Position numbers and translations under genes: made by a program
Shown: piece after piece, positions 4,180 through 59,722 of the stretch
Numbering within the stretch: position 1 is the stretch's first letter
Layout of the letters: each line of letters begins with the position of its first letter
The notes under the pieces: generated by a model
What the model saw: the letters and a program-made list of their open reading frames with translations, nothing else
Database searches by the model: none
What the model was told of the DNA's origin: nothing
Assembly: GCF_000015285.1 (NCBI RefSeq)
Contig: NC_008709.1
Location: forward strand, 1,736,001 to 1,800,000
Reading direction: 5' to 3'
Origin: Psychromonas ingrahamii 37
GTDB taxonomy: Bacteria; Pseudomonadota; Gammaproteobacteria; Enterobacterales; Psychromonadaceae
DNA length: 64,000 bases

Positions 4180-4400
4180 GCTGAAGGCTATAAAGAGCTG
4201 AAAAGCTCGAAGCTCGAAGCTCGAAAGCTCGAAGCTCTAAAGCTCGAAGCTCGAAGCCCGAAAGCTCGAAGCTCGAAAGCTCGAAGCTCTAAAGCTCGAA
4301 AGCCCGAAAGCTCGAAGCTCGAAAGCTCGAAGCCCGAAAGCTCACAACTCGACAGCTGGCAGCTGACAGCTAACAGCTGATCGCTGAAGGCTGTTCGCTG
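4180..4400. repeat. Heptamer/octamer array, AAGCTCG type
   Basis: About 28 tandem units of 7 or 8 bases with an AGCT core, mainly AAGCTCG and AAAGCTCG with AAGCCCG and AAGCTCT variants. It ends in diverged units such as ACAGCTG and GCAGCTG. The array fills most of the space between the convergent GNAT/nitrilase and dld-II genes. No protein or recognised mobile element is associated. It is the longest uninterrupted member of the AGC-core array family in this window. Confidence 0.9.
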
Positions 4401-4416
4401 CGCTTCTCTTTTATAA

Positions 4417-7248
4417 CTAAGCGCTCACCTCATCGACCAAATACAAAATAGACTGATAAGGAATGCCGCTATGGTGGGATAAACCTATCTCACAGGTGCG
4501 GCTATTGCTGAAGCCGCGCGAGCAGTTGTCCGGTACTTGCTCTTTGAGTGTCTGCAGTGCTGCTGCATTGAGTTCAGGCGTGGTAAAGCCTTTATCACCC
4601 GCCCAACCACAGCACTCAATATGCTCAGGTACAATCACTTTTGAGGCGCAGGCATTGGCGAGTGTAAGCATGCTGTCTGCCAGACCCATACGTCGTGCAC
4701 TGCAGGTAATATGAAGCATCACTGCTTCTTTAACGGGTGAAAGTGTTAAATATTCGAGCAGATAGTTGAGCACAAAAGCTGTGGGCTCTAAAATTTCCAT
4801 CGGTTGGGTAAACTGCTCAAGACTGTATTTTGCACAGGGACTGGTATCCATTAAAATTGGCCACTTGCCCTGCTCGCTTGCTTGCCAGAGTGCATCTTCT
4901 AACTGCTGTGATTTTTGCTTAGCAATGACTGTCATGCCCTTGCTGTCGTAGGGCATACCACAGCATTGGTCGCTCAAAGCGTCAGGAATAATAATTTCAA
5001 AGCCGGCTTTGATAAGCAGAGAGGTGGTCACTTCCGTAAGCGGGCGAGCATCACTATTGCCTGCTTGTTGTCCCATGGTGCGACTGGCGCAGGAAGGCAA
5101 GTAAACAACCTTTTTACCATTTCCTGTTTTGTTAGTGACCTTAGTGTTTTTCGGCTGGTGGGGATTAGAAGTCGGCAGTTCAGGTATCCACATGGGTGTT
5201 TTGCCGGCGCTTAGCTTGCGCAATCCGTTAGTGACTTTACCGACGACTTCCTCACCAAGGGTTTTCTGCGCAAGTGTATTCACCTTAAATCCGACATTAA
5301 CCATCTTGGTGGTGGCCGAGAAATGATTGGCTGTCCAGCGGGCAATAGTGTTGTATTTCTGATATTTAGTGGTGCGCAGTTTTTTCACCAGATCGCCGGT
5401 ATTAATACCGACCGGGCAGCGCTCGGCGCACAGGCCGGTAGCGGCACAGGTATCAACCCCCTGGTATTCAAAGACCTTACGGAATTCTTCTAAATTGTCT
5501 GTTTCGCCTGCGGCTTCTCGGCGTTGCAGTTCGCGATATAAGACAATACGCTGGCGCGGTGACAGGGACAGTGTGCGTGAAGGGCAGACCGGTTCACAAA
5601 AACCACATTCAATACAACGATCAATCAAATCATCGGCTTTGGGCATTGGTTTGAGGTTTTTAAGGTGTGAATGCGGATCATCATTAATAATTACCCCGGG
5701 GTTTAATATGCCCAGGGGATCAAATAAAGCTTTAATCTGCTGCATCAGGGCATGGCCATCTTTACCCCATTCAAGCTCAACATAGGGAGCCATATTACGG
5801 CCTGTCCCATGTTCCGCTTTTAATGAACCTTGATATTTCACTGCAACTAACTCAGCCACGGCATCCATAAAGTCGCCATAGCGTTTGATTTCAGCGGGTA
5901 AGTCAAATCCCTGAGTGAAGACAAAGTGCAGGTTACCTTCCAGCGCATGGCCAAAAATAATCGCTTCATCGTAATGAAACTTATCGAAAAGCTGCTGTAA
6001 ATCACGTACCCCGGCGGCTAAGTATTCCACAGGAAAGGCCACGTCTTCAATGATAACGCTAGTGCCAACCTCACGTACTGCGCCAACGGCCGGGAACATG
6101 CCTTTACGAATACCCCATAGGGTGGCGACAGTCTCGGCATCGCTGGTAAAAGCGATCGATTCAATCACTTTAAATTGGCTGGCTGTTTGCATAATGGCGG
6201 CGCATTGTTGCTCTAAGCTTGCCTTGTCACCAGCACGTGATTCAATCAATAGTGTACCGGCTTCTAAATCCAAGTCTTTGATAAAATCAGGCATGCCGGC
6301 TGCATCTGCTACCGAACGCATTGCGCGTCCATCCATCATTTCAACTGCGGAGACGGGACTTTTTGCTAAAGCGGTAACTGCTTGACTGGCTTCTTCAATG
6401 TCCTTAAAGACAATCAAAGCAGAGGCTTTGTGCGGGTGATCTATGACTGTGTTATAGGTTATTTCAGCAATAAAGCCTAAAGTACCTTCAGAACCTATCA
6501 TCAGGTGTTTGATCACATCGATCGGATCTGAATAATCAACTAAGGCATTGATTGAATAGCCAGTGGTATTTTTCAGGCGATATTTATGGCGGATACGCTG
6601 CGCCAATTCGTCATTATTTTTGACATCAGCACAGAGTTTTTTAATACCTGAAACTAATGCCGACTGCTTAATTTCAAAAGCTTCAATACTGGCTTTGTCC
6701 GACGTATCGAGCAGGGTCCCGTCCGTAAAAACTAACTTCATGCTGTCAACGGTGCGGTAAGTATTTTGTGCTGTCCCGCAACACATTCCGCTGGCATTAT
6801 TCGCCGCAATGCCACCAATTTTACAGGTGTTGATAGAGGCCGGATCCGGGCCTATTTTACGCCCGAATGACGCCAGATATTTATTGGCATCTGCGCCAAT
6901 AACGCCGGGCTGCAGGGTGATTTTATGGCCATCGTTGTGAATACTGTGACCGCGCCAATCATCGGTGAGCATAATTAAAACAGAATCCGATACCGCTTGA
7001 CCTGATAAACTGGTGCCTGCTGCTCGAAAGGTACAAGGAAGGTTAAGCTTAGCGCAGGCCTGAATAGTAAAAATAACTTCATCAAGGTTTTTTAAACGGA
7101 CCACCATTTTGGGAATTAAGCGGTAAAAGCTGGCATCTGTCCCGTAGGCAAGCAGCAAAGCCTCTTCGGTGAAAATACGCTCATGATTAATCTTTGTGGT
7201 CAGCAAATCCTGCAGTTGTTGGTAGTTATGTTGATCGTTATTTTCCAT
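4417..7248 (-). CDS. dld-II: D-lactate dehydrogenase Dld-II (FAD and Fe-S)
   Basis: Respiratory flavoprotein of 943 residues predicted to oxidise D-lactate to pyruvate at the cytoplasmic face of the membrane, passing electrons through Fe-S centres towards quinone. The N-terminal half is an FAD_binding_4 / FAD-oxidase_C module (GTSLSGQAVSD, GADANKYLASFGRKIGPDP, EHGTGRNMAPY). Two ferredoxin motifs follow (CIECGFCEPVCP and CAATGLCAERCP), then C-terminal CCG-type cysteine clusters (CCGMPYDSKG and CCGWAGDKGF). Length and order match the Shewanella Dld-II group. It is the last gene of lldP-lldE-lldF-lldG-dld-II, a gene set known in Shewanella as the lactate-use locus. Its ATG overlaps the stop of a 34-codon mini-ORF (TAATG), so translation is probably coupled. 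The paralogue YdiJ at 48073 is longer and distinct. Confidence 0.9.
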   Translation of the reverse strand: MENNDQHNYQQLQDLLTTKINHERIFTEEALLLAYGTDASFYRLIPKMVVRLKNLDEVIFTIQACAKLNLPCTFRAAGTSLSGQAVSDSVLIMLTDDWRGHSIHNDGHKITLQPGVIGADANKYLASFGRKIGPDPASINTCKIGGIAANNASGMCCGTAQNTYRTVDSMKLVFTDGTLLDTSDKASIEAFEIKQSALVSGIKKLCADVKNNDELAQRIRHKYRLKNTTGYSINALVDYSDPIDVIKHLMIGSEGTLGFIAEITYNTVIDHPHKASALIVFKDIEEASQAVTALAKSPVSAVEMMDGRAMRSVADAAGMPDFIKDLDLEAGTLLIESRAGDKASLEQQCAAIMQTASQFKVIESIAFTSDAETVATLWGIRKGMFPAVGAVREVGTSVIIEDVAFPVEYLAAGVRDLQQLFDKFHYDEAIIFGHALEGNLHFVFTQGFDLPAEIKRYGDFMDAVAELVAVKYQGSLKAEHGTGRNMAPYVELEWGKDGHALMQQIKALFDPLGILNPGVIINDDPHSHLKNLKPMPKADDLIDRCIECGFCEPVCPSRTLSLSPRQRIVLYRELQRREAAGETDNLEEFRKVFEYQGVDTCAATGLCAERCPVGINTGDLVKKLRTTKYQKYNTIARWTANHFSATTKMVNVGFKVNTLAQKTLGEEVVGKVTNGLRKLSAGKTPMWIPELPTSNPHQPKNTKVTNKTGNGKKVVYLPSCASRTMGQQAGNSDARPLTEVTTSLLIKAGFEIIIPDALSDQCCGMPYDSKGMTVIAKQKSQQLEDALWQASEQGKWPILMDTSPCAKYSLEQFTQPMEILEPTAFVLNYLLEYLTLSPVKEAVMLHITCSARRMGLADSMLTLANACASKVIVPEHIECCGWAGDKGFTTPELNAAALQTLKEQVPDNCSRGFSNSRTCEIGLSHHSGIPYQSILYLVDEVSA

Positions 7249-7352
7249 TATAGTTCCTCAATCAAAATTACCACTAATTGGCTGGGTCCATGGGCACCGT
7301 AAGTCAGTTGTTGGTGGTTATATTGGTCATTATATTGGTCGTTATATTGCAT
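7248..7352 (-). other. Chimeric mini-ORF from duplicated lldG/dld-II junction
   Basis: A 34-codon open frame fits exactly between lldG and dld-II and overlaps both neighbours as TAATG. Its first half (MQYNDQYNDQYNHQQL) resembles the Dld-II N-terminus (MENNDQHNYQQL), with a small internal repeat of NDQY. Its second half (TYGAHGPSQLVVILIEEL) is a near copy of the LldG C-terminus (AYGAHGPSQLVVILIEDM). This is what a tandem duplication across the lldG-stop/dld-start junction would leave after shrinkage. A stable functional peptide is not implied; the frame may persist because it keeps translation coupled along the operon. Confidence 0.8.
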
Positions 7353-8002
7353 TACATATCCTCAATCAAAATCACGACCAATTGACTTGGTCCATGGGCA
7401 CCGTAAGCCAATGTTTGCTGTATATCTGCGGTTTTTGACGGACCGGAAACTAAGACGATATTGGTCGGCATATTGTTCTGCCATGCCTGCATTTCCATCA
7501 GCTCTGCAAAGTTGCTGACAATAGTTGAGCGTTTGATCAGGGCAATGTGGCAGGGTGGCACTAATGAAAGGGTTCTTGGCTCGGAAACATCCGGCCACAA
7601 TACTAATGTACCCGTGTCTGCGATGCCGGCCCGGCAATGCGTAATGCCCGCATCAACATTATTAAACAGACTCGACTTCCAATCCTTGATATCGTTGTCA
7701 AAAAACACTGTTTTTAATGATTTAGTCGCTTGAATTATATGTTCATGAAATTCACCACTGGTGCCCAGAGCAATGTGCTCAAGCTGTTTACCGACGGCGA
7801 CTTCCTCTATTAGCTTGCTGAGTGCTTTATGGCTCGTTGAAATCACTTCGGCATGACTGGCCGATAATCCGGCAATAAAACGTTCTGTTATCACCTTTTC
7901 ATCCTCGCTCACCCAAGGCTGATATATGATAGTTTCCATGGCTTTTGCTTCGGGCTTGGCATCACGAAGGCGAGATAGAATGGCATTTCTTGCGCTGCTC
8001 AT
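7352..8002 (-). CDS. lldG: L-lactate utilisation protein LldG/LutC
   Basis: LUD-domain protein of 216 residues, the small third component of the L-lactate dehydrogenase complex LldEFG (LutABC), which oxidises L-lactate to pyruvate. The LUD fold is recognised from the central GITHCRAGIADTGTLVLWPDVSEPR segment region and the C-terminal AYGAHGPSQLVVILIEDM. Its ATG overlaps the lldF stop as ATGA, indicating translational coupling. It contains no Fe-S motif, as expected for this subunit. The last 18 codons are partly duplicated just downstream, in the mini-ORF at 7248-7352. Confidence 0.9.
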   Translation of the reverse strand: MSSARNAILSRLRDAKPEAKAMETIIYQPWVSEDEKVITERFIAGLSASHAEVISTSHKALSKLIEEVAVGKQLEHIALGTSGEFHEHIIQATKSLKTVFFDNDIKDWKSSLFNNVDAGITHCRAGIADTGTLVLWPDVSEPRTLSLVPPCHIALIKRSTIVSNFAELMEMQAWQNNMPTNIVLVSGPSKTADIQQTLAYGAHGPSQLVVILIEDM

Positions 8003-9459
8003 GATTTTTGTCCCTGTTTCCGTGCTTTGATTAATTGGTGTAAGGTTTTACCGGCAGGTTTAGGGGCTGTTCGGCATTGTGTCCATGGCCCTATTTTGCT
8101 TGGCATTAAGGATCTCATCTTGGTGGCTGACCATGATCCCAGATGATAAAGAGAAGGGTGTGAGGCTGCAAAGGCAAATCCTTTCATTGCCAATAACTCT
8201 ATTCTGCTGGCTGCGGCTGCCTGCCCTTTAATCGCTGGCCTATTATTTTTGGGCGAATTTTTAGCTTCCTGACGTAAGCGCTGCAGCATTTCTGGAATGG
8301 GAATATTTACCGGGCAGACTTCGCCACAGGCACCGCACAGGCTCGATGCTGTCACTAAATCTTTAGTGTTATCGAGCCCCATCATATGGGGTGAAATAAT
8401 TTGACCAATGGGTCCAGGATAAGTCGTGCCGTAAGCATGACCACCAATACGGGTGTACACCGGGCAGTGGTTCATGCACGCACCACAACGAATACATTGC
8501 AGTGTTTGACGCATCTCTTCGTCGGCAAAGGCTTGTGTACGGCCGTTATCGAGCAGCACCAGGTGAACTTCTTCAGGGCCGTCTAACTCACCCGCGCGGC
8601 GCGGTGAGCTTATCATATTAAAATAAGTGGTAATGGCCTGTCCCGTAGCTGAACGGGTAAGGGCGCTGTACAGCGGCGGCACATCGCTTAAAAACTCCAC
8701 CACCTTTTCGATACCGGTAATGGCAATATGCACATTGGGCACCGTCGTACACATACGTCCGTTGCCTTCGTTTTCAACCAGACACAGGGTGCCGGTTTCC
8801 GCGACGGCAAAGTTAACCCCCGATAAGCCAATATCTGCATCGTGAAATTTTTTCCGTAGACGGGTGCGCCCGGTTTTAATCAATTCATCCACATCGACGG
8901 TCGGGGTGAAGTCATCGAGGTGTTTTTCGAAGGTATCGCTGACTTCCTGCTTGTTTTTATGAATGGCGGGCATAATGATATGGGAGGGTTTATCGCCATC
9001 GAGCTGCACAATATATTCGCCCATATCACTTTCTAAACATTCAATACCGAGCTTTTCCATTTCGTGGTTGAGTTCAATTTCTTCACTCACCATGGATTTG
9101 CCTTTAATAATATTCTTGGCATTATGCTGCCCGGCAATACCGGCAATGATACTGTTCGCTTGTTCGGTCGTTTCTGCCCAATGCACCTGAATACCATTAT
9201 TTGTACAGTTAGTTTCAAGCTGTTCGAGTAAATCGGGCAGTTTGCTCAGGCTGCGCTGGCGAATCGCCGCGGATAAATCGCGAATGCGTTTTTCTTCTGT
9301 CGGATCTGAAAAAGCAATTTTACGTTTGTCTGTTAAGTAGTCCATTGCGCCGCGAAAATTTTGGCGTAGCTGTGGATCGGCAAGGGCTGCTTTGGCCTGA
9401 TCATGAAAATGCTCCGGTGCTAAATCTTCAATCTGTACGCCGTTATTTGCTTGGCTCAT
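7999..9459 (-). CDS. lldF: L-lactate utilisation Fe-S protein LldF/LutB
   Basis: Protein of 486 residues, the large Fe-S subunit of the LldEFG L-lactate dehydrogenase. An N-terminal LUD domain (about 60-290) is followed by two [4Fe-4S] motifs, CIRCGACMNHCPVY and CGACGEVCPVNIP, and a C-terminal extension. The order and spacing are typical of LutB. It carries electrons between the LldE subunit and the respiratory chain. The start is fixed by GGAGG just upstream, which is embedded in the end of the preceding mini-ORF (TAG, one base, then ATG). It is transcribed with lldE and lldG. Confidence 0.92.
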   Translation of the reverse strand: MSQANNGVQIEDLAPEHFHDQAKAALADPQLRQNFRGAMDYLTDKRKIAFSDPTEEKRIRDLSAAIRQRSLSKLPDLLEQLETNCTNNGIQVHWAETTEQANSIIAGIAGQHNAKNIIKGKSMVSEEIELNHEMEKLGIECLESDMGEYIVQLDGDKPSHIIMPAIHKNKQEVSDTFEKHLDDFTPTVDVDELIKTGRTRLRKKFHDADIGLSGVNFAVAETGTLCLVENEGNGRMCTTVPNVHIAITGIEKVVEFLSDVPPLYSALTRSATGQAITTYFNMISSPRRAGELDGPEEVHLVLLDNGRTQAFADEEMRQTLQCIRCGACMNHCPVYTRIGGHAYGTTYPGPIGQIISPHMMGLDNTKDLVTASSLCGACGEVCPVNIPIPEMLQRLRQEAKNSPKNNRPAIKGQAAAASRIELLAMKGFAFAASHPSLYHLGSWSATKMRSLMPSKIGPWTQCRTAPKPAGKTLHQLIKARKQGQKS

Positions 9460-9460
9460 T

Positions 9461-9577: not shown

Positions 9578-9578
9578 T

Positions 9579-10475: not shown

Positions 10476-10495
10476 TTTGTGATAGCGGTACGCTA

Positions 10496-13900: not shown

Positions 13901-14008
13901 GAAGAAAATACACCAGCTATCAGATTTTAGCTCTCAGCTTTCAGTTTTCCAGCACTCTAGCTTTCTAGCATTCCTGTATTTTATCCACCGAACCTGAAGG
14001 CCCAGTTT
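13901..14008. repeat. Composite AGC-array element, copy 1
   Basis: The element starts with GAAGAAAATACACCAGC and continues with degenerate 7-8-base units (AGCTCTC, AGCTTTC, AGCACTCT and the like). It closes with CCGAACCTGAAGGCCCAGTTTC. The same left end, array and right end recur in copy 2 directly downstream, and in reverse orientation at 33403-33634. Confidence 0.75.
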
Positions 14009-14009
14009 C

Positions 14010-14100
14010 GAGAATATACTGGCTATCAGATTTCAGCTCTCAGCTTTCTAGCACTCTAGCTTTCTAGCCTTTTACCCGTCGAGCCTAAAGGCCCAGTTCC
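14010..14100. repeat. Composite AGC-array element, copy 2
   Basis: GAGAATATACTGGC is followed by the AGC-core units AGCTCTC, AGCTTTCT, AGCACTCT and AGCTTTCT, then the closing motif GAGCCTAAAGGCCCAGTTCC. It directly abuts copy 1, so the pair looks like a tandem duplication of the whole element. Confidence 0.75.
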
Positions 14101-14550
14101 AAACCACACTAACTCCGTCATTCCCGAGTTGTCCTGTCGGGAATCTCAGTGGATATAGCGCATACATAAAAGCCAAGCGGCTAGTTCATAACAAATACAT
14201 CCCGAGATCCCCGACTAAAACACCTCGGGGATGACGACTAACGGAGAGCGGTGTAAAGTCCAATTTTTTACGTCACCCTCCATTTAACCCGTCATTCCCG
14301 AGTTATCTTATTGGGAATCTCAATACATAGAATACCAAGCCAATGCGGCTACGAACCCCCCGTCCATTTTTCTTGTGCTGAACGACTGTTTTAGCAAGGG
14401 GAAACACGATGTTTCCATTAGGCTCGGCACGCACAGGGATGTGCGATCCGAGCTGGTGCGTTAAAAACAGGTGGATAATATAAGATCAAAAAATGGCCTG
14501 GGCGGCACTCTTTTGCTTACTTTGCTCTTGCTGTTGAGAGAAAAGTAAAG

Positions 14551-14640
14551 TCGCCGTCAAAGGCGAAAGACCAACAATAAAAGTTAAACCAGACGCCTCA
14601 AGCGAAGGCCTACGAATAACCGATGTGGTATCAGACCGTC
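14551..14640. repeat. Dispersed repeat (FIVGLSPLTA type), copy A
   Basis: Shares the core ACCAACAATAAAAGTTAA and GCCTCAAGCGAAGGC with copies near 22577 and 25695. It contains two short stems (TCGCC/GGCGA and GCC/GGC). In reverse it spells EASGLTFIVGLSPLTAT, a phrase I associate with spurious ORFs in many marine gammaproteobacteria. It is probably a non-coding repeat. Confidence 0.7.
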
Positions 14641-14717
14641 CGAATCGGAATCCCGCCGAGCCTAAAGGCTCAGTTCCAAAAAAGTTTACACATATCTGAA
14701 TCATCAACACAAACATA

Positions 14718-22287: not shown

Positions 22288-22335
22288 AATTTCTTATCGG
22301 CTGTATTTTGTTTCTTTTATAAAGCTAATAAACCG

Positions 22336-22410
22336 CCTTCAAGCACTCAGCATTTAAGCATTTAAGCATTCCAGCTCTCCAGCCTCCAAACCTTCCAGCA
22401 TTTACGGCAG
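22336..22410. repeat. Heptamer/octamer AGC array
   Basis: Degenerate units such as CACTCAG, CATTTAAG, CATTCCAG and CTCTCCAG, with the same 7/8-base rhythm and AG core as the arrays at 13901 and 33432. It is flanked on the right by a copy of the FIVGLSPLTA-type repeat (about 22577-22650). The rest of 22410-23013 shows no supported gene. Confidence 0.7.
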
Positions 22411-22576: not shown

Positions 22577-22655
22577 GCCATCTATTCGCCGTTAAAGGCG
22601 AAACGCCAACAATAAAAGTTAAGTCAGACGCCTCAAGCGAAAGCATACAAACAAG
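22577..22655. repeat. Dispersed repeat (FIVGLSPLTA type), copy B
   Basis: TTCGCCGTTAAAGGCGAA forms a stem, followed by CCAACAATAAAAGTTAAG and GACGCCTCAAGCGAAAGC, matching the copies at 14551 and 25695. Sequence just upstream (GAGGATGAC twice, GTCATTCCCGAAG) belongs to common GTCATTCCCG-type repeats. Confidence 0.7.
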
Positions 22656-25694: not shown

Positions 25695-25785
25695 TCTAGT
25701 CGCGGTCAAGGGCGCAAGACCAACAATGAAAGTTGCACCAAGCGCTAACAAGCGAAAGCTTACGAATAACCGATGCGGCATTATC
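25695..25785. repeat. Dispersed repeat (FIVGLSPLTA type), copy C
   Basis: GGGCGCAAGACCAACAATGA, then AAGCGAAAGCTTACGAATAACCG in two stretches, matches copy A in order and spacing, including the shared ending ACGAATAACCGATG. The reverse-strand frame reads FIVGLAPLTAT. A 66-codon frame drawn across it (25581-25781) is considered spurious. Confidence 0.7.
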
Positions 25786-26567: not shown

Positions 26568-26572
26568 CAATA

Positions 26573-26607
26573 GAAAGCAGAGAGCCGCAAGCTAAAAGCA
26601 GAAAGCA
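26573..26607. repeat. Short heptamer array, GAAAGCA type
   Basis: Five exact 7-base units, GAAAGCA GAGAGCC GCAAGCT AAAAGCA GAAAGCA, lie between the ywbE-like stop and the first possible start of the TSUP permease. All are strictly 7 bases with AGC at the same phase. It belongs to the window-wide AGC family and forms the leader of the permease gene. Confidence 0.75.
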
Positions 26608-26609
26608 GA

Positions 26610-33318: not shown

Positions 33319-33346
33319 AAAGTCACTCTCACCGAGTGACTTTTTT
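33319..33346 (+). terminator. Rho-independent terminator of lipoprotein 2
   Basis: Same stem as the first lipoprotein gene (AAAGTCACTC / GAGTGACTTT) followed by a T run. Confidence 0.92.
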
Positions 33347-33402
33347 ATTGCCATCCTGTAATAATAAGCTTATTCCTTTCTTTTTTCTGCCAATATTTTT
33401 TC

Positions 33403-33634
33403 GGAACTGAGCTTTTAGGCTCGGGGGGGGGAATGCTTGAAGGCTGAAGGCTGAAGGCTGAAGGCTGAATGCTGGAGTGCTGGAGTGCTGGAATGCTTGA
33501 AGGCTGAATGCTGGAATGCTGGAGTGCTGAATGCTGGAATGCTGGAGTGCTGAATGCTTGAATGCTGGAGTGCTGAGTGCTGAGTGCTGAAGTGCTTGAA
33601 GGCTGAAGGCCGGTGTATTCTCTTCAGGCTCGGC
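33403..33634. repeat. Composite AGC-array element, long copy (reverse)
   Basis: Read on the minus strand it has the same build as the elements at 13901-14100. It has GAGCCTGAAGAGAATACACC at one end, then more than 20 units of 7 or 8 bases (CACTCAG, CACTCCAG, CATTCAAG, CATTCCAG, CCTTCAG) over 33432-33610. A run of nine C follows, then GAGCCTAAAAGCTCAGTTCC at the far end. A reverse frame across it (33329-33646) spells a repetitive peptide and is not a gene. Confidence 0.88.
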
Positions 33635-33636
33635 TG

Positions 33637-33699
33637 TTTGATACAAATAAGCCTCCGGTTCTATATATTAGAACAAGGAGGCTTATTTAACGTATCAAA
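33637..33699. terminator. Bidirectional terminator-like stem downstream of ettA
   Basis: Outer arms TTTGATAC and GTATCAAA (33637-33644, 33692-33699) enclose inner arms AAATAAGCCTCC and GGAGGCTTATTT (33645-33656, 33677-33688), with a further small stem GTTCTA/TAGAAC inside. It lies just beyond the ettA stop. Confidence 0.8.
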
Positions 33700-45817: not shown

Positions 45818-47740
45818 ATGACCCTGTTTAAGCAGATAAACTCATTATTGTTAGGACTTTTTTTGCTGGTAATGTCCACTTTATTTTATTTTCAGTTTAC
45901 CGAAACAAGTGCTTTTATGAGCGATCAAATGGAATCAGATCTCAATAATACCAGTATTTCATTAGGTCTGATGTTAAAACCTCATCTGGAAACGGGCGAT
46001 GTAGTGATGGTTGAAACCTTAATCAATGTTATTTTTGAAGGCGGTTTTTATCAAAGGGTCAGTCTGACCTGGCTTGCAGATCAAAAACAGCAAGTATGGA
46101 AGAATCCTGTCATTATAAATGGGGTACCACAATGGTTTGTTAACTTGGGGCTATTTAAGGGGCTAATAAGTGAAACTGTTATTACATCAGGGTGGTTACA
46201 GCTGGCAACGTTGAAAATCGAATCAAATCCAGCGATCGGTTACCGGGAATTATGGCGGATTATGAAACATATGGTACTGGCTTTAGTGGTTATTTTTCTT
46301 ATCGCAATTTTTTTATTCCGCTGGCGTTTAAAAACCATTTTAAAACCCGTAGATCAAGTTGCAGCACATGCCTATGACCTTGCCCGGTGTAAATTCAGTG
46401 AAAATTTACCCTTACCTAAAACCACTGAACTTAAAAAAATGGTTGATGCCGTTAACACCATGTCCGGACAATTAAAGTTAGTGTTTAATTCTCTTGCTGA
46501 GCAAGTGAATATATTAAAAAATGAAACATTGTTTGATGCTGTTTCGCAGCTTCCTAATAGACAGTACTTAGCGGGGCAATTGACCAGTCGCTTAGATCAG
46601 CCGGGGGTAGGGGCGCTAATATTAGCTAAATTTCCCTGGTTAGATGAAATACACCATAAATTTGGTTATCAGGTACGTGATCAAGCCATTAAAAAATTGT
46701 CAGATAACCTGCTGAAAAGCCTGCCTAAAAGCTTTATTGCGCGTATTTCAAATACGGAATTTGCTTTTTTAATAATGGATGCTGATGATAAACAGATAAC
46801 TTATTATCTGCAGCTGTTAATCCGTTTAATTAATCAGGAAATTTTGCAGGACGGCTGTATTCCCAACCGTGATTTTGCGATTGGGTTAAGTGAAAGGACC
46901 GCGAATGTAACACCCGCCGAATTATTAGCTCAGGCAGATCATGCTTTGCAAAAAGCGCTGTTAGAAAATAAAATCAGCCAATGGTTTAGGCCTCATACTG
47001 AGCAGGAATTTAGCCTGGAACAATGGCGAGTTCGTCTTCTGGATGTCATTAACAAACATCAGTTTATATTCCAATGGCAAATGGTACACAGCATGGAAAG
47101 TGATAGTGTCATGCAGAGAGAGATTTACAGTCGTTTAAAAATAGATGAAAAAGTTACCCAAGCGAATGAGTTTATACCCTTTGTTGAACGCTTAGCATTA
47201 GGCCATCAGTTCGACAGAAACATACTCGAAGCACTTGTCAAAAGACAGCTGCTAACGATTAATAAAGAACCTATTGCAGTGAATTTAACCCGTGACAGTA
47301 TAGTCAATAACGAATTTCATACCTGGTTAAGTCAATTTTTAAATAAGGTTGCCGATCCGCACCTTATTCATTTTGAGTTGCCCGAAGCGGGGGTTTTAAA
47401 TTATTTAGAGGAAGCGATTAGACTCTCTGACATTATAAAAATTAGAGGGGCAAAATGTGGTATAGATCATTATGGTCAACAGTTAACATCCTTTGAATAC
47501 CTGCGACTGTTAAAACCTTATTATGTAAAATTGGATCTTTCATTGTCTGCTTACCAGGATCAAGAGAAACCACACAATCTGAAAAATCTGGAAATCTGCC
47601 GCGCACTGGTCAATATTGCACATGGCTTTGATATTAAAGTGATTATTACGGGTATTGAAGACGAGAAGCATCTGAAGATGGTCAAAATTTTGCGGATTGA
47701 AGGTTATCAAGGTTATATATCAGGCCCAGTTGACATATAG
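45818..47740 (+). CDS. lapD: LapD-like c-di-GMP receptor (degenerate GGDEF-EAL)
   Basis: Inner-membrane receptor of 640 residues. It has TM1 (about 8-26), a periplasmic LapD/MoxY-N sensor (about 27-150), TM2 (about 152-171), HAMP (about 172-225), a GGDEF domain with its motif changed to SNTEF (about 235-395), and an EAL domain with the signature changed to PEAGVL (about 405-640). Both catalytic motifs are lost, so it should bind rather than make or degrade c-di-GMP. In known systems the c-di-GMP-bound form traps LapG and protects the adhesin. Co-transcribed with lapG. Confidence 0.92.
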   Translation: MTLFKQINSLLLGLFLLVMSTLFYFQFTETSAFMSDQMESDLNNTSISLGLMLKPHLETGDVVMVETLINVIFEGGFYQRVSLTWLADQKQQVWKNPVIINGVPQWFVNLGLFKGLISETVITSGWLQLATLKIESNPAIGYRELWRIMKHMVLALVVIFLIAIFLFRWRLKTILKPVDQVAAHAYDLARCKFSENLPLPKTTELKKMVDAVNTMSGQLKLVFNSLAEQVNILKNETLFDAVSQLPNRQYLAGQLTSRLDQPGVGALILAKFPWLDEIHHKFGYQVRDQAIKKLSDNLLKSLPKSFIARISNTEFAFLIMDADDKQITYYLQLLIRLINQEILQDGCIPNRDFAIGLSERTANVTPAELLAQADHALQKALLENKISQWFRPHTEQEFSLEQWRVRLLDVINKHQFIFQWQMVHSMESDSVMQREIYSRLKIDEKVTQANEFIPFVERLALGHQFDRNILEALVKRQLLTINKEPIAVNLTRDSIVNNEFHTWLSQFLNKVADPHLIHFELPEAGVLNYLEEAIRLSDIIKIRGAKCGIDHYGQQLTSFEYLRLLKPYYVKLDLSLSAYQDQEKPHNLKNLEICRALVNIAHGFDIKVIITGIEDEKHLKMVKILRIEGYQGYISGPVDI

Positions 47741-47741
47741 A

Positions 47742-47790
47742 CGCAAATTACTTGAAGATGCAAATGTCTGCATCTTCAAATAATTAGGCG
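47742..47790 (+). terminator. GATGCA-family hairpin acting as lapD terminator
   Basis: CGCAAATTACTTGAAGATGC pairs with GCATCTTCAAATAATTAGGCG-like sequence around a 6-base loop, followed by TTAATTTTTT. It shares the core ACTTGA..GATGCA with the palindrome at 41784-41835. The remaining 47791-48072 has no gene. Confidence 0.8.
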
Positions 47791-48072
47791 TTAATTTTTT
47801 ATCTTCGTGGCGTTAAGCTGCTTTAAACTCGCTTTTCTGGTTTCTCCATAGATAGTTTTTTTTGCAATGACGACCTTTATCTAAAATAAAAAATCATTTA
47901 CATCCCCCTTTGTTATTCATTTTCACACAATATTTTCGCTGAAATAATGATCCTGAATGCGGTTTGTTACGTAGAATTTTTCATCTAAACAGATTAGAAA
48001 TTTGTGCTAATATGAGCGCTATTTTATTAATATCAGCAATATCAGCAAATAACCGACTAGGGTACTTTAGAC

Positions 48073-52585: not shown

Positions 52586-52594
52586 TACGAATAA

Positions 52595-55500
52595 TCAGCT
52601 TTTTTCCTTGTCCTGTGAAATAAGATGAACATCCTGTTGCGGGAAAGGGATCATAATTTCAGCTGCCTTAAAGCGTTTATAAATTTCTTTATGCAATTCA
52701 GTAATTGTCTGTAAACGATCACCTTGGGTGGCAACGTAGGCCCTTAGGGTGAGTAGTAAGCTGCTATCGGCAAATTCTTCAAAGTTAACAAAGGGTGGCG
52801 GTTCAGTGAGTGTATGCTCATTCTCCTTGGCAATATCTTCAATAATGGTCATGGCCAATTCCACATCACTGCCGTAAGCAATGCCGACCTTAACCATGAT
52901 CCGGGTAATTTCATCGCTAAGTGTCCAATTAAGTACACGGCCGGTAATCAACTCTTTATTGGGAATCAATAACTCTTTTTCATCAAAGTTGCGGATGGTG
53001 GTGGCGCGAATACGAATGCGGATCACTGTGCCCGATGATTCGTCCGTACTGCCGGTGCTGATAATATCACCGACGCGAATGGGCCGTTCAAATAATAGAA
53101 TTAAACCACAAATGAAATTGGCGACGACTTCCTGCAGACCAAAGCCAATGCCGACACTCAGCGCTGCAAACATCCATCCGATACGGGAGGAATTTATTCC
53201 AAGAAAGCTCATGGTGATAAGAATCGTAATAATAACAATGCCATAACGTGTTAAGGTCACAATAGCATAACGGGAACCTGGACTGACTTTTCCGTTTTTA
53301 AGTAAAATGATATCTATTAAAGAAGGTAAGTTTCGGGATAATATATACCCTCCTAAGCTCACTAAAAAAGCCACTAATACTTCATCCAGTCTCACGGCAA
53401 GCAACACTTCTTTACCATCCACTATCACGTCTTTATTCCACAGCTCTATCTGTTCAAGGAAACTTAATGCAGGTAACATCTGACCCCAGACGCCAACGAA
53501 TCCGACCACGGCGAGGACTAAGGTCGCGGCATTAATCAGCTTGTGACTGTCGCCGTCTAATGTTTTTAAATTGGCCTCATGCTCTAATATTTCCTCATGA
53601 ATTAATTCCGGTATTTCACTCTCTGTTGCTTTAAGGCGGTCCCATTTAACCTTTCGAGCAATCACCAAATTATCATAGGTGAGCCGTTTACTGGTAATTA
53701 ATAACCAGCGGCTTAAAAGTGAATGAAAAATCCACACAACAGCGGCAAATAAAATTGAAAAATACAGACGTTCGCCAAATATGCCTGCTGTGTAGGTGTA
53801 TCCTGCTAAGGACATAATAACTATCGCGACGGGTAAGCACATAGTAAAGAAAAAGATAATTTTTCTGGTGTGGAATGTTGACTCAGGATCTGTTGTTGCC
53901 GGATACAGTAAGCCTTTGTGAGGGTGAAAAATACTATAGATGATTCTTACCAGTGTAAACATAAGACCTGAATAGCCCAATACTGCAAGCGCTCCCCCCA
54001 ATGTCGCAGGAAATAATTTGATCGCACTCAGGGTGATAAAATAGCAGGGAATACCGAAGTAAATAAATAGGTTGAGTTGTTTGACATATTTTGACAGCGC
54101 TTTTGCTTTACGCCCAAAATGCACTTCTGACACCCCTTTTTCAATGCACAGCACTTTTAAAAGCTGCACTGCAAAGAGCGACACCGCAGTGTAAATGCCA
54201 GCATTGGCTAATTCGACTGAAATGTTCGACGCAGTTGTTGGGAGTTTTATCGCCCAACTAATAATAAATAAGATTAACCCGGCCGGTAATGCTAACAGCG
54301 TGGTGTAAATTAATGCTTTAAGGGTATGCAGGATACTATCTTGTTTGACACTGCCTACCTTTTCACCACAAATTTGTAATGAGGTAAGTAAATTCTGGCG
54401 TAAAAAAATCAACAAAAAGACCAAGGATAAGGGGATAAAGAGTAACAAGAGATTTGGTAATCTAATTTTTTTTAGTTTCAATAACTCACTTTTAAAATGA
54501 CTTACGTAGCATTTAAGATCTGAGGGTAATTGGGTAAACATAATAAAATCAAAGGCGTTACTGCTTTTTAGCCACAGGAGGTGCTCAGTTAAATAATCAT
54601 CATACTCTTTTGTTTTATTTATTAATTGTAGGTATCTGGCATCCAGTTCGTATAACCCACTCTGCTGTACCCGGTCATTTTTTATCACTCTTTCAAGCAT
54701 GTTTTGACGGTTTTCTAACAATTCGGACAGGATCTTATGATGTTCACTGCTTTTTTTCTTGTCATACTGCCCGGGTGCTTGCTCATCGTTAATTAACATC
54801 TCTTCGTGACGGAACAATCGTAAGCTTATGTTAGCAATATCATCAAGCACCACACTGCGTGACTTTATGTAGGTTTGACTCTTGGGGAGTTTTTCTCGTT
54901 GTGCGCGAATGGATAAAGCTATAAAGGATGAGTCACTTTGAAGTTGCAATTTTTTACGTGCACTGTGGAATGCTTCTGATACCTGCAGTGATAATTTACG
55001 TTCACTCGTTTCTTTTTCTAACAGTGTTTGCAGTTCCTGAAACTGTAATTCTAATACAGCAATCAAGGCTAAATTTTGCTTGGCTATTCCCTGCAGGTAA
55101 TTATCCTCTGCTAATGCCCCGTTGAGCACCAAATTGGCAGTTTCAGACACTTTTTGGGTCGACTCTGCGCGTTTGTTAAAAAGCTTTTCATGTAAAAACG
55201 CGATGCGTATTTCGATTTTTTTCAGCAAGGTTATTTCGTTTTTTTGTTTTTCCTGCAGCAGGTTCAATAAAGTACTGTTGCCGGTGAGTTCCTGATCAAG
55301 CATTAACAGTTCTGTTTGTAACGATTGACGTTTCGTTTCCTGGTACCAATTATCCGCTTCTGTAAATGCAGGACTGTTATTGGATTGTTTATCTATCTGC
55401 TTTTCATCAAGCTCTGCCATTTCTAAACGGATATAATTAATTCTTTCTCTGTCCCGGCTCGGCCGTAAGGTACTTTCCCCAATAGTGGTATTAATGGCAC

Positions 55501-55912
55501 TCAGTGTCTCTTCCGATGCCGAACGGTTTTTTTCTTCATCTGAAATCAGTTTTTCTAATGTCGCCAGATCAGTGTATTGATTGATTTTTAAGCTGGCTAA
55601 GGGATCGGTTGTCAAGCGTTCCTGCTGTTTTTTTTTCAGTGTGTTTATTTCTTGAGGGGCCGTTAATAATGTTTTTTGATATTCTGCTGTGGCCTCTTTG
55701 TGCTGTTCAGTTTGGTGCAAGTGGGAGATGCTGTCGCGATACAGCTGAATTAATTTGGCTTGTGTTTCTGAATCATATTCTTGAGATTTTTTAGCTTGTT
55801 CAATACGTTTATCAAGCAGATCAATTGTCACACTATCCTGTGATTGAGCCGATCCAAGCGCACTAAAAAAAATAACACTCAAAAATAAAAGTAGCTGGCT
55901 AATATTCTTCAT
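52595..55912 (-). CDS. mscK: Mechanosensitive channel MscK/KefA
   Basis: Large mechanosensitive channel of about 1105 residues that opens on membrane tension to release solutes during hypo-osmotic shock. Signal peptide MKNISQLLLFLSVIFFSALG, long periplasmic coiled-coil region (about 30-480), about eleven membrane spans, and the MscS-type pore and beta domain near the C-terminus (GFGLQEVVANFICGLILLFE, PIRVGDIISTG). ATG 55912 is preceded by GGAG with a 5-base gap; the longer frame to 56014 adds 34 residues before the signal. Length is close to E. coli MscK (1120). Confidence 0.92.
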   Translation of the reverse strand: MKNISQLLLFLSVIFFSALGSAQSQDSVTIDLLDKRIEQAKKSQEYDSETQAKLIQLYRDSISHLHQTEQHKEATAEYQKTLLTAPQEINTLKKKQQERLTTDPLASLKINQYTDLATLEKLISDEEKNRSASEETLSAINTTIGESTLRPSRDRERINYIRLEMAELDEKQIDKQSNNSPAFTEADNWYQETKRQSLQTELLMLDQELTGNSTLLNLLQEKQKNEITLLKKIEIRIAFLHEKLFNKRAESTQKVSETANLVLNGALAEDNYLQGIAKQNLALIAVLELQFQELQTLLEKETSERKLSLQVSEAFHSARKKLQLQSDSSFIALSIRAQREKLPKSQTYIKSRSVVLDDIANISLRLFRHEEMLINDEQAPGQYDKKKSSEHHKILSELLENRQNMLERVIKNDRVQQSGLYELDARYLQLINKTKEYDDYLTEHLLWLKSSNAFDFIMFTQLPSDLKCYVSHFKSELLKLKKIRLPNLLLLFIPLSLVFLLIFLRQNLLTSLQICGEKVGSVKQDSILHTLKALIYTTLLALPAGLILFIISWAIKLPTTASNISVELANAGIYTAVSLFAVQLLKVLCIEKGVSEVHFGRKAKALSKYVKQLNLFIYFGIPCYFITLSAIKLFPATLGGALAVLGYSGLMFTLVRIIYSIFHPHKGLLYPATTDPESTFHTRKIIFFFTMCLPVAIVIMSLAGYTYTAGIFGERLYFSILFAAVVWIFHSLLSRWLLITSKRLTYDNLVIARKVKWDRLKATESEIPELIHEEILEHEANLKTLDGDSHKLINAATLVLAVVGFVGVWGQMLPALSFLEQIELWNKDVIVDGKEVLLAVRLDEVLVAFLVSLGGYILSRNLPSLIDIILLKNGKVSPGSRYAIVTLTRYGIVIITILITMSFLGINSSRIGWMFAALSVGIGFGLQEVVANFICGLILLFERPIRVGDIISTGSTDESSGTVIRIRIRATTIRNFDEKELLIPNKELITGRVLNWTLSDEITRIMVKVGIAYGSDVELAMTIIEDIAKENEHTLTEPPPFVNFEEFADSSLLLTLRAYVATQGDRLQTITELHKEIYKRFKAAEIMIPFPQQDVHLISQDKEKS

Positions 55913-56101
55913 CAAAGCTCCATGGTCATTTGCACAAGCACTGCTGCTGCAAAAAATCCCGAATACTATTGCAGGAAGTCGTTGTTCTTCTCTCATAAAA
56001 TCGCTTGGCACCATTTTAAATAACTTTAGCCAATTCGACGGGTATTATTGCGCGCTGATGAAGGCATCACAAAATAATTGCCCCCAATGGTGAATTAAGG
56101 A

Positions 56102-56129
56102 ACGGCCATGGATATCATTCCAAGGCCGT
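56102..56129 (-). terminator. Hairpin downstream of eptA
   Basis: ACGGCCATGG and CCAAGGCCGT are inverted copies with one mismatch across an 8-base loop, between the eptA stop and the mscK start. No strong T run, so termination is tentative. Confidence 0.5.
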
Positions 56130-56205
56130 ATTAACGACTTAATAATCAGAGTACGTTACTGGTATCATCTTACTTCCTCGCGGGAGAGTTATTTAGCCTT
56201 CAGTG

Positions 56206-57885
56206 CTAATTTATTTCAGGATCGACTGACTTCGTTTTTGCAATATTACTTATGCTCTGTTTGCAACTGGCAATAATATCCAGTTGACTATCTTTTGCTG
56301 TTGAATCAACACCATAGAATCCGAGGAGAGTATGGAACAGATTATCGTGAGAAAAGGTATCATTGTTTGCTTTATCAAGCAGACACTGTTTATCGATCCC
56401 TTTTGCAGCGGCATAACCATTTCCTAACCACATAAACCAGGGAACCTGAGTTTGTTCTTCAGGGGCAATCATATAAGGAGCACCATGCAGATATAAGCCA
56501 TTTTCACCAAGCGATTCGCCATGGTCTGAGATATACATTAAGGCAACATTATATTGCTTCGAATATTCTGTTAATTTTTTAATGGTCTGGGCAATAATAT
56601 AATCCGTATAAACAAGGGTATTATCATAAACATTGACTATCTCTTGATCGCTGCAGTGTTCAATATCACTTTGATTACAAGCGGGGGTGAATCGTGCTTT
56701 ACTTTCCGGATAGCGCTGCCAGTAGGTCGGTCCATGACTGCCTTTAATATGTAAAGCGATCAATTGATTACCTTTATTTTTTTGAATTTTTTCGTCTAGA
56801 TTTTGCAGTAAAACCTCATCGTAACAGGATCCTGCATCACATAACTCCGGGCTGTCTTCCGCTGCGATCTCTATTTTTGAAAAATTGTCAGCGACTCTTT
56901 TATCACCGCCATCATTTTCAATCCAGAGCATATCCACGCCTGCATGAGAAATAACATCCAGAGCATTATCCTGGGTAATTGCACGATTTTTGTCGTAATT
57001 AGAGCGGTTCATATTTGAAAACATACAGGGTAACGAGTGTGCAGTCGCTGTGCCGCATGAGGAAACATCTTGAAAAGAAATTATCCCCATATCTTGTGTA
57101 TGGGGATTGGTATTACGCGCATAACCATTGTAAAAAATATTTTGTGAACGTGCTGTCTCACCCACGACTAAAATCATTAAAGTAGGTTTGTCATTACTGC
57201 TGTTTTCCAGACTCGCATCCTGGCCAATTTTTTTGTAAGCCAATTCTTTTGTTAAATAAGTTATCTTCAGATACTTATATGAATTGTATGCATGAGCCGG
57301 GTTAATCATTTTGTTTAGATAGCTGTTATTTCGCCCTATAGAGGCATAATCTTTGTAATAAAAAAAGGCGATAAACAAAATCCCAACAACGGCAACAATA
57401 ACCAATAAAAGCCGATTAATTATTTCTCTGGTAATACTTTTTGCATAGGTTATTTTTGTTTTAAAAACAATCAATGCAGGTAGTAGGCCTAAGAATATAA
57501 AGTATGAAATTGACCCAAAGTTTATATAAGTAAAAGCTTCCCCCGTATCTGTTTCAAAAATATTTTCTATCATAGAGTAGTCAAACATGACGTTATATTT
57601 GATACTGGCATAAAAAGCTAATGCAGATGTTATCAGCAGTGGGATTTGTATTGCTTTAAATAGATAGGGCAGGGCGAGTATTGAAAAAATAATAATAAAT
57701 GCAAAAGTTAAAACGAGCGGTGACAGAAAATAAAAGACACTCTGATTGTCCGATAAAATATAGATTTTATCGATAATAGGGTAATTGAAAACAAAGCCAT
57801 AGTATATTGAAAGAAGGGTGATCAAAAACACCATATTTGAGGAGAGATTGATATTTTTAATGGTCTTTAACAAAGTCGATTTCAA
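56206..57885 (-). CDS. eptA: Phosphoethanolamine transferase, EptA type
   Basis: Inner-membrane enzyme of 559 residues that adds phosphoethanolamine to lipid A, which in characterised bacteria reduces susceptibility to cationic peptides. Five N-terminal membrane spans (to about residue 180) precede the periplasmic sulfatase-fold domain. The nucleophile is Thr244 in VVGETARSQN; metal ligands lie in MYISDHGESLGENGLYLHG. CSxxS and other cysteines fit the family disulfides. Single gene downstream of nothing on its strand; no PmrAB-type regulator is nearby. Confidence 0.92.
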   Translation of the reverse strand: MKSTLLKTIKNINLSSNMVFLITLLSIYYGFVFNYPIIDKIYILSDNQSVFYFLSPLVLTFAFIIIFSILALPYLFKAIQIPLLITSALAFYASIKYNVMFDYSMIENIFETDTGEAFTYINFGSISYFIFLGLLPALIVFKTKITYAKSITREIINRLLLVIVAVVGILFIAFFYYKDYASIGRNNSYLNKMINPAHAYNSYKYLKITYLTKELAYKKIGQDASLENSSNDKPTLMILVVGETARSQNIFYNGYARNTNPHTQDMGIISFQDVSSCGTATAHSLPCMFSNMNRSNYDKNRAITQDNALDVISHAGVDMLWIENDGGDKRVADNFSKIEIAAEDSPELCDAGSCYDEVLLQNLDEKIQKNKGNQLIALHIKGSHGPTYWQRYPESKARFTPACNQSDIEHCSDQEIVNVYDNTLVYTDYIIAQTIKKLTEYSKQYNVALMYISDHGESLGENGLYLHGAPYMIAPEEQTQVPWFMWLGNGYAAAKGIDKQCLLDKANNDTFSHDNLFHTLLGFYGVDSTAKDSQLDIIASCKQSISNIAKTKSVDPEIN

Positions 57886-58450
57886 GGTGGTTATCCCGAT
57901 GGGTTAATAATAAGTAATAGTATACTTTTTTAAACTTAAGATTTACTGAGGAAGTCTATTCAACAGTGATTTATTACAGTAATTTATTACAGTAATTTAA
58001 AACTTACCGCTGTTTAGCAAATATTGCTTAATTAATGAGCGCCTTACTCTGGCAACAGAGTATATGAAAATTTTATACTGTCTAGTGTTTTAGTCAGTTT
58101 GTCACAGACACAGAAGATACCATTCTTTATACTGCTCTATAAAGCAATATATTGTTTTGATGATTAGTATGTCAAACCCGATAATTTTATCTTTATTTAT
58201 GCGGGTTAAAAAATATGTAGGCGAGGCATAAAAAACTGTTTTAGTCTTTACTCTTGATTTGATTTCAGTTGAGTTGATTTATAACATCCTATTGTTCAAC
58301 ACTTACTAATAGTCAGCTAAAGCTGTTCAAAATAGTTTCCTACTATTGTTGCGTAATTAGAATAGCTAGTTACTGCAATCAATGCCTTGCTTTTATGCGT
58401 TTTTTCTGCGCCTAAAGAGATCACTAAATTAACGGAATTGGTACTAAATA
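57886..58450. other. AT-rich intergenic region between eptA and add
   Basis: No gene or strong hairpin. A short tandem repeat, TTATTACAGTAAT about three times, lies at 57968-57999. Promoters of the divergent eptA and add genes should lie here, but none could be assigned with confidence. Confidence 0.45.
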
Positions 58451-59452
58451 ATGATTACTAACACGCTCCCATTAACAGATCTTCACCGTCATCTTGATGG
58501 TAATATCCGCATAGAAACCATTTTAGAATTAGGTCAAAAATTTGCCTTACCTTTGCCCGCTTATGATATTGAGGGCTTACGTCCCTATGTGCAAGTTGTT
58601 GAAAATGAAGCAGATTTAATGGCTTTTTTATCTAAATTGGATTGGGGTGTCGCGGTGTTGGGCGATCTTGATGCTTGTCGCCGTATTGCCTATGAAAATG
58701 TGCAGGATGTGATGCATGCAAAAATTGATTATGCGGAGTTGCGCTTTTCACCTTATTACATGGCAATGAAACACAATTTACCGCTTGCTGGTGTTGTTGA
58801 GGCTGTTGTGGACGGTGTGCATGCGGGGTGTCGCGATTTCTCTGTTAAAGCCAATTTAATCGGCATTATGAGCCGTACTTTCGGCAAGCAACGCTGCCAA
58901 CAAGAGCTTGCTGCTTTATTAACTCAAAAAGATAAATTAGTTGCAATTGATTTGGCTGGCGATGAATTGGGGCACCCCGGCGAGCATTTTGTCGAACATT
59001 TTAAAACAGTTCGAAATGCAAATTTACAGGTCACTGTGCATGCCGGAGAGGCAGCTGGTGCAAGCAGTATTTGGCAGGCAATTAATAAGCTTGGAGCAAC
59101 CCGCATTGGGCACGGTGTGAAAGCGATTGAAGATCCGACATTATTGGATTATCTGGTTAAACATAAAATAGGGATCGAATCTTGTTTAACCTCAAATAGT
59201 CAAACAAGCACGGTGAGCTCCTTTGCAAAGCATCCTATAAAGACTTTTTTAGCGCACGGGGTGCTCGCGTGTTTAAACAGTGATGATCCCGCTGTTGAAG
59301 GGATTGAACTCGCGCATGAATATCAAGTGGCGGCAACAAAAGTCGGTTTAAATCAAGACCAAATTCGTCAAGCACAAATTAATGGTCTTGAAGTTGCGTT
59401 TCTATCTGATGCCGAAAAAGCAGCACTGCGTAACGATGCATTAAATCGTTAG
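58451..59452 (+). CDS. add: Adenosine deaminase Add
   Basis: Cytoplasmic zinc enzyme of 333 residues converting adenosine and deoxyadenosine to inosine and deoxyinosine for purine salvage. Zinc ligands HRHLDG (about 12-17), the catalytic Glu in HAGEAAG (about 200), [11 protein letters not shown] and [10 protein letters not shown] are all present and match E. coli Add closely along the length. Single-gene unit. Confidence 0.96.
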
Positions 59453-59572
59453 CTATTTATCCACGCGGTGCAATATCTGATTAATTCCTTTACTATCAAT
59501 TCCCTTCAAAATATATATTCAAGGGGATTGCATATATTAATCATTAGAAAAAATGATATCTTGATGTTGTTG

Positions 59573-59629
59573 ATGAAAAATTCATGTGTATTGTATTACT
59601 GGGCTTATTTGTTTTGGGTTGTACGCCGA
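59573..59629 (+). pseudogene. Truncated 5' copy of the DUF3012 lipoprotein gene
   Basis: Bases 59573-59629 match the first 19 codons of the gene at 59723 (shared TGTATTACTGGGCTTATTTG and GGTTGTACGCCGA) but contain a one-base loss that shifts the frame. The copy ends at the lipobox region, immediately where the heptamer array begins. Confidence 0.92.
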
Positions 59630-59631
59630 CC

Positions 59632-59722
59632 GTGAGTTGTGAGTTGTGGGCTGTAAGCTGTAGGCAGTAAGCAGTAAGCAGTGGGATGTAGGTTTTAGGC
59701 TTTAGACAGTGGAGAGTGATGG
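59632..59722 (+). repeat. Thirteen-unit heptamer array ending at a start codon
   Basis: Exactly thirteen 7-base units (GTGAGTT twice, GTGGGCT, GTAAGCT, GTAGGCA, GTAAGCA twice, GTGGGAT, GTAGGTT, TTAGGCT, TTAGACA, GTGGAGA, GTGATGG) fill 91 bases. The last base is adjacent to the ATG at 59723. The unit GTGGAGA provides the GGAG ribosome-binding site with 8-base spacing. Confidence 0.9.

Follow-up and report, generated by a model that had tools for sequence, protein, structure and literature searches.

Many short tandem arrays with a unit of seven, sometimes eight, bases lie between the genes of Psychromonas ingrahamii 37. They belong to an already described class, the intergenic heptameric simple-sequence repeats of bacteria: they occur above chance, lie between genes, and vary in copy number between relatives. 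The arrays change in place: at corresponding sites, a sister species differs in how long the array is, what its units are, or whether there is one. We consider it probable that the arrays arise by slippage during replication, with a natural step of about seven bases (sometimes eight), and are tolerated between genes. The stretch under study (the window, 64,000 bases) spans bases 1,736,001–1,800,000 of the single 4,559,598-bp contig of this genome (G000), and 23 relatives from the same genus were compared with it. The genome paper reports a single 4.56-Mb chromosome (PMC2405808); in its main text the words "heptamer," "satellite," and "intergenic" do not occur, and "repeat" occurs twice, for unrelated matters. 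An initial annotation of the window listed six loci with tandem units of seven or eight bases. Inspection of the arrays and a scan for regularly spaced GC dinucleotides found such structure at or near all six.

Period-Seven Arrays Lie between Genes and Usually Share a Core

The genome was sampled over 884 kb, including the window, which had been chosen for its arrays. Lag spectra were computed for 179,143 intergenic bases and for 657,696 bases of open reading frames (ORFs) of at least 120 amino acids (aa). Intergenic DNA gave 17 clusters at lag 7, 12 at lag 14, 9 at lag 21, and 8 at lag 8; the means of ten shuffles were 0.2, 0.0, 0.1, and 0.2, respectively. The claim that many separate period-7/8 arrays exist, far above the level of shuffled intergenic DNA, is thus borne out at lag 7 (17 versus 0.2). 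The ORFs contained no cluster at lag 7 or lag 8 and 12 at lag 21, and dinucleotide-keeping shuffles (five for the window and a single one for each sample stretch) gave none at any lag from 4 to 24. Detection that ignored the core yielded 23 merged period-7/8 loci in the 884 kb. Four of the lag-7 clusters and five of the merged loci come from the window; the search beyond it, which the initial annotation had proposed as a check, therefore adds 18 loci.

A shared AGC/GCT core had also been proposed. A GC chain (AGC/GCT) of at least four in phase occurs in 19 of the 23 core-blind loci (14 of 18 outside the window), so the core is usual, and it is missing from the other four. When the loci are scored by the dinucleotide with the longest chain (ties shared), CT takes 5.3, AG 3.8, GC 3.7, TA 2.7, and AA 2. 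Because 19 of 23 loci have a GC chain and the longest chain is often CT, AG, TA, or AA, the AGC/GCT core (AGCT/RGCY) is a strong tendency and no rule. Among 45 RGCY chains of G000, a set selected for RGCY that includes loci fetched for AGCT, the 334 cores are AGCT (192), GGCT (69), AGCC (67), and GGCC (6), and the step is seven bases in 214 cases and eight in 75. Unit make-up varies; some arrays are uniform (e.g., 33 units of AGCTGAA), and others are mosaics.

GC dinucleotides spaced by seven or eight bases form 22 chains of at least five in 484 kb, 7 of them in the window; some of those outside it lie inside ORFs and are chance-like. Over the full 884 kb there are 31 such chains, some arrays entering as two: 24 are intergenic, and 7 fall within called ORFs, some of which consist of array. 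Ten of the 24 intergenic chains lie at convergent, 11 at co-directional, and 3 at divergent sites; by base count, intergenic DNA is 20% convergent and 26% divergent. No replication-strand bias was seen (11 to 9, with arrays of near-even purine content dropped). As RNA, the six window arrays have no unusual structure (z −1.93 to 1.78 versus shuffles). The arrays do not fit CRISPR or attC sites, since their 7/8-base units stand head to tail with no spacers; the attC fold itself was not searched for.

The Arrays Change in Place in a Sister Species

The closest relative, G021, shows 94% identity to G000 in one protein and mostly 83%–93% over longer syntenic DNA matches. The comparison is one of sister species, not of strains of one species, and it covers the window sites other than 33430 (array 5). 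At site 4180, the array is ∼220 bases long in G000 versus ∼430 in G021, where a palindrome of the repetitive extragenic palindromic (REP) type described below lies inside it. Site 13914 has AGCTTTC-like units in G000 versus CGCCTTAA units in G021. The heptamer run at site 22335 corresponds in G021 to tandem REP copies separated by short heptamer-phase runs. At site 59632, G021 has a similar series of units with point differences, and the first flanking copy of the local duplication is also recognizable there. The weak array at 26572 does contain 7/8-base units in G000, and its G021 counterpart shows no clear array.

Further sites behave in the same way. At one site (L028/L063), a GC chain of 5 in G000 faces one of 33 in G021, with the flanks kept; at another (L041/L280), the make-up of the arrays differs. 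At site 47739–47943, arrays and REP copies are found in G021 only, none being present in G000, and the G021 flank differs too. Copy number thus varies between close relatives at the sites compared. The arrays had been described as separate expansions and not copies of one array, and this stands because the change at the same sites in G021 is local. Full independence does not, as three window arrays (2a, 2b, and 5) lie next to one shared type of REP palindrome. In G005, which has 88% identity in the protein in which G021 has 94%, 87 kb held one chain of 6, which is not array-like.

A REP Palindrome Adjoins Some Arrays

The GGAACTGAGCCTTYAGGCTCGGCGG-like palindromes beside arrays 2a, 2b, and 5 are short, interspersed, and present in many copies, as REPs are. 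At three mismatches or fewer there are 12 sites in G000, 53 in G021, and 0 in the other 22 genomes of the genus, and the reversed control pattern gave no match. Most REPs carry a GTAG or CGTC tag at one end (PMC3733652). By eye, the 30 aligned sites lack this tag and start with GGAA, a string that occurs 0 times in PMC3733652.

G021 also carries a 173-aa ORF (L315, G021:C158) that matches Y1_Tnp (PF01797, E 6.1e-14) and resembles a REP-associated tyrosine transposase (RAYT). Eight palindromes spaced by 118 bases lie on one side of the gene and one lies on the other, a result that concerns G021 and not G000. Judged from this arrangement, the Y1_Tnp protein of G021 is likely to be the transposase of the palindrome. 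The likeness to REP/RAYT systems consists of the 12 + 53 palindrome sites and a Y1_Tnp gene that the palindrome flanks; the difference is that only some arrays have the palindrome beside them, and it fails to account for the arrays overall.

Of the 65 palindrome sites, 30 were examined for GC chains of at least four within 150 bp. Chains were found on the 3′ side of 7 and on the 5′ side of 4, compared with 2.5% of 17,312 overlapping random intergenic windows. This enrichment is suggestive, and it is partly chosen because window arrays make up half of the four G000 sites that have a 3′-side chain.

Array-Rich Species Are Scattered through the Genus

Three AGCT at 7-base spacing were matched 78 times in G000, 58 in G007, 34 in G009, 241 in G013, and 480 in G021; the other 19 of the 24 genomes have at most 9 matches each. 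Five of 24 genomes are therefore array-rich. Core-blind detection gave 23 loci in 884 kb of G000, 14 in 234 kb of G021, and 3 in 146 kb of G013 and, in smaller samples, 2 in 100 kb of G007 and 1 in 92 kb of G009. These small unbiased samples of G013, G007, and G009 are poorer, so a few long arrays account for part of the richness seen by pattern. Across the class, four AGCT at 7-base spacing occur in 13 of 369 genomes, G000 included (reversed control, 3 of 369). A scan of many phyla was set aside, as ∼60 chance matches are expected in 257 Gb. In G009 (L072:10387–10462), a TTAGTNN heptamer array precedes an inverted version of itself, and the two could pair into a long hairpin.

The initial annotation found no protein gene linked to the arrays. 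This holds for the few families tested (Y1_Tnp, PF00078, dnaQ, mutS, mutL, and sbcD), none of which tracks richness within the genus. The reverse transcriptase family PF00078 has no match in the rich G021, G007, and G009, one fragment in G000, and five matches in G013; with three of five rich genomes lacking a match, it was rejected as a requirement. Y1_Tnp, a family that also includes IS200 transposases, has matches in rich and poor species, and its presence was rejected as the switch. All five rich Psychromonas have matches over the cut-off to dnaQ, mutS, mutL, and sbcD, so loss of any of these was rejected as the cause in this genus. Loss of SbcD was rejected as a general rule too: no match over the cut-off was found in G333, G226, G077, G181, or G345, and of these G181 and G345 (other families of the class) bear arrays, whereas G226 and G077 are array-poor.

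A Seven-Base Step in a Reduced Endosymbiont Genome

The class scan drew attention to G333 through its match to the AGCT pattern. This single genome, a 351,658-bp contig with 27% GC, is probably of the Portiera lineage from Bemisia tabaci. It has mutS and no dnaQ or mutL match; all three genes are present in G226 (same genus) and G077 (same family). Five evenly spaced stretches (100 kb) were taken from each genome (L327–L331 for G333). Lag-7 clusters per 100 kb numbered 32 in G333 (local shuffles, 1.8), 3 in G226 (2.5), and 2 in G077 (0.9). Outside ORFs of at least 90 aa there were 31 in 32.7 kb of G333, 0 in 6.7 kb of G226, and 0 in 13.0 kb of G077; one of the five G333 stretches had no noncoding cluster. 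The neighboring lags 5, 6, 8, and 9 gave 3 to 6 clusters each in G333. The seven-base step thus appears in a tiny genome with reduced repair.

Portiera of B. tabaci is reported to lack dnaQ and to have 111 tandem repeats against 10 (PMC7821994). The mosaic period-7 arrays of G333, probably the same lineage, resemble those of Psychromonas; they differ in being AT-rich and mostly without the GC core (a GC chain is present in 4 of 50 loci). The relevant passages of PMC7821994 and PMC5322561 speak of microsatellites or tandem repeats instead of a seven-base period, and "heptamer" occurs 0 times in either main text; a 2013 paper cited there falls outside this statement.

Relation to Known Heptamer Arrays

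In 2007, Mrazek (per PMC4679880) found heptamers to be the most frequent type of long simple repeat in the majority of the bacterial genomes covered, and why they predominate is a long-standing question. The direct TAACTGA repeats of Beggiatoaceae, Cyanobacteria, and some Bacteroidetes (MacGregor, 2015, PMC4679880) are, like the arrays described here, seven-base tandem units, mostly intergenic and patchy across species, and TAGCTGA units seen among the present arrays differ from them by one base. Two Cyanothece strains differ in these repeats mostly by indels in 7-nt increments (PMC4679880). In the TAACTGA case, however, one unit dominates, one-base variants are seldom repeated, and most sets lie just upstream of start codons, whereas the G000 arrays are mosaics of many units and favor convergent sites; on both counts, including the 10 convergent, 11 co-directional, and 3 divergent chains among 24, they fall outside the TAACTGA group. 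The GGGAATC/(GGGANTN)n heptamers of Xanthomonas and GGGGA(C/T)T of Nostoc (PMC4692102) share more with them: heterogeneous arrays with a conserved core, mostly intergenic, variable between close species, under-represented between divergent genes, and without leading/lagging preference. They differ in being G-rich and quadruplex-forming, with 16% at convergent sites. The initial annotation named no described mechanism, which is nearly right; the class itself has been described, and slippage was proposed for heptamer arrays earlier, from statistics (PMC4679880, section 3; PMC4692102, section 16).

Slippage as the Probable Source, and Its Rivals

In the reading that we favor, the replisome would set the seven-base step, and related seeds, some of them adjoining REP palindromes, would have been expanded repeatedly to give arrays with common cores. 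Hairpins may stall the fork and thereby aid slippage. No regulatory role is assumed. Slippage is supported by the intergenic excess of period 7 together with zero lag-7/8 clusters in ORFs, by the site-by-site differences between G000 and G021 (such as GC chains of 5 versus 33 with kept flanks, or another unit at 13914), by the preference for convergent over divergent sites (10 versus 3 chains), by the lack of replication-strand bias, by array-rich species without PF00078, and by the excess in G333, absent from the sampled noncoding DNA of G226 and G077. Several observations weigh against it. Plain slippage alone predicts neither the GC core in 19 of 23 loci nor the patchiness within Psychromonas (5 of 24 rich), and the repeated cycles of mutation and expansion are deduced, not directly seen. 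Among nine hand-picked arrays outside the window, five out-fold their shuffles as RNA (z at or below −3 on a strand), which would suit a functional reading. Because the rich Psychromonas keep dnaQ, mutS, mutL, and sbcD, the endosymbiont serves as an analogy and does not share its cause with them; G333 is also one genome chosen for its AGCT match. Published counts speak against a simple rule: compared with 111 tandem repeats in Portiera of Bemisia, there are 3 in Portiera of Singhiella, whose dnaQ is a pseudogene, and 11 in Uzinura, which lacks dnaQ (PMC7821994). Losses of other replication genes are also reported for the Bemisia lineage (PMC5322561). A wider proposal, which we offer tentatively as possible rather than likely, is that period seven is a signature of the replisome: in genomes that have lost proofreading and mismatch repair, seven-base slippage would fill intergenic DNA, the rich free-living species would carry a milder change in the same machinery, and REP hairpins would act as local starters. 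With two array-rich sister species beside an array-poor one, and an endosymbiont pair differing in dnaQ and mutL, slippage is directly testable.

Selection offers a different account, in which the arrays are regulatory elements close to the ends of genes, their cores serving at seven-base intervals as binding sites for a protein or RNA. The core stays while the remaining bases vary, convergent sites are favored (10 of 24 chains versus 20% of intergenic bases), good RNA folding is seen in five of the nine arrays from outside the window, and a translational role was proposed by MacGregor for TAACTGA heptamers (PMC4679880). We nevertheless judge this account unlikely: units and lengths differ between sister species at shared sites, the arrays at 47739–47943 in G021 have no G000 equivalent, and the RNA structure of the window arrays is ordinary in six of six. 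A REP/RAYT system could instead spread or remodel the arrays, its single-strand Y1 transposase cutting near REP hairpins and array cores and rejoining units. The palindromes beside arrays 2a, 2b, and 5, the chains near REP sites (7 of 30 and 4 of 30 versus 2.5%), and the palindrome-flanked Y1_Tnp protein of G021 are what it would explain; it is made quite improbable by the partly chosen enrichment (two of four G000 sites), by a palindrome confined to 2 of 24 genomes when 5 of 24 are rich, and by Y1_Tnp matches in rich and poor species alike. The patchiness itself (five species with 78, 58, 34, 241, and 480 matches, and no more than 9 in any of the other 19) would suit a dedicated enzyme, acquired by some species, that synthesizes heptamer arrays with or without a template. 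The units vary from array to array, which leaves no single template; PF00078 is missing from three of five rich species, and period-7 arrays are made in a 0.35-Mb genome, all of which leaves such an enzyme very unlikely. A hairpin fold-back in which palindromic AGCT primes copying across a three-base loop and fixes the period at seven was given almost no weight and rejected. AGCT-NNN-AGCT can form a four-base stem with a three-base loop, and AGCT makes up 192 of the 334 cores (counted in a set of chains chosen for RGCY), but the reverse-complement neighbor spacers that fold-back predicts are rarer than in within-array shuffles (2 of 244 adjacent pairs versus 5.8; G021 alone, with 0 of 124 and 0.0 expected, is uninformative), and the TGCT core of the 33430 array is not palindromic.

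Anatomy of the Window Arrays and Neighboring Elements

The arrays of the window and the features directly beside them are collected in Table 1. Array 5 is spanned by a 105-aa minus-strand ORF (33329–33646) with no Pfam match. Judging by its sequence, copy 1 of the duplication flanking array 6 resembles the beginning of a reading frame for a small lipoprotein. In the sister G021, a ∼75-base repeat that begins in the end of array 6 is itself tandem.

Table 1. Arrays and Adjoining Features in the Window (Window Coordinates; GC Chains Spaced by 7 or 8 Bases)
Feature	Position	Strand	GC chain	Remarks
Array 1	4180–4401	+	4197–4341 (20 units) and 4355–4398 (7 units)	Mostly AAGCTCG(A), 7 and 8 bases mixed; end is AGCTGAC/AGCTAAC/GCTGAAG; convergent ORFs on both sides
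Array 2a	13914–13973	−		Weaker array; degenerate units of AGCTTTC, AGCACTC type; minus is the purine-rich strand
REP palindrome between arrays 2a and 2b	13985–14009	−		3 mismatches to pattern
Array 2b	14022–14070	−	14036–14068 (5 units)	Units AGCTTTCT/AGCACTCT
REP palindrome beside array 2b	14076–14100	−		2 mismatches
REP palindrome without adjoining array	14653–14677	−		0 mismatches
Array 3	22335–22397	−	22335–22383 (7 units)	Units AGCATTTA/AGCATTC/AGCTCTCC
Array 4 (weak)	26572–26609	+	26577–26606 (5 units)	Units AGAAAGC/AGAGAGC
REP palindrome directly 5′ of array 5	33403–33427	+		1 mismatch
Array 5	33430–33610	+	33435–33610 (24 units)	Units GAATGCTG/GAGTGCTG/GAAGGCT
Duplicated stretch flanking array 6, copy 1	59572–59629	+		From alignment
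Array 6	59632–59710	+	59650–59679 (5 units), within the wider array	GTGAGTT/GTAAGCT/GTAAGCA, period 7, very heterogeneous
Duplicated stretch flanking array 6, copy 2, after the array	59722–59780	+		From alignment

Other repeated sequences were seen in the window. A second interspersed element with GTCATTCCCGA-like ends occurs at 14117, 14225, 14291, and 22565, near arrays 2b and 3. A third (GACCAACAATAAAAGTT ... TACGAATAACCGATG) lies at 14569–14625, 22604–22620, and 25718–25775, and a 104-base tandem repeat of 1.8 copies occupies 7219–7407.

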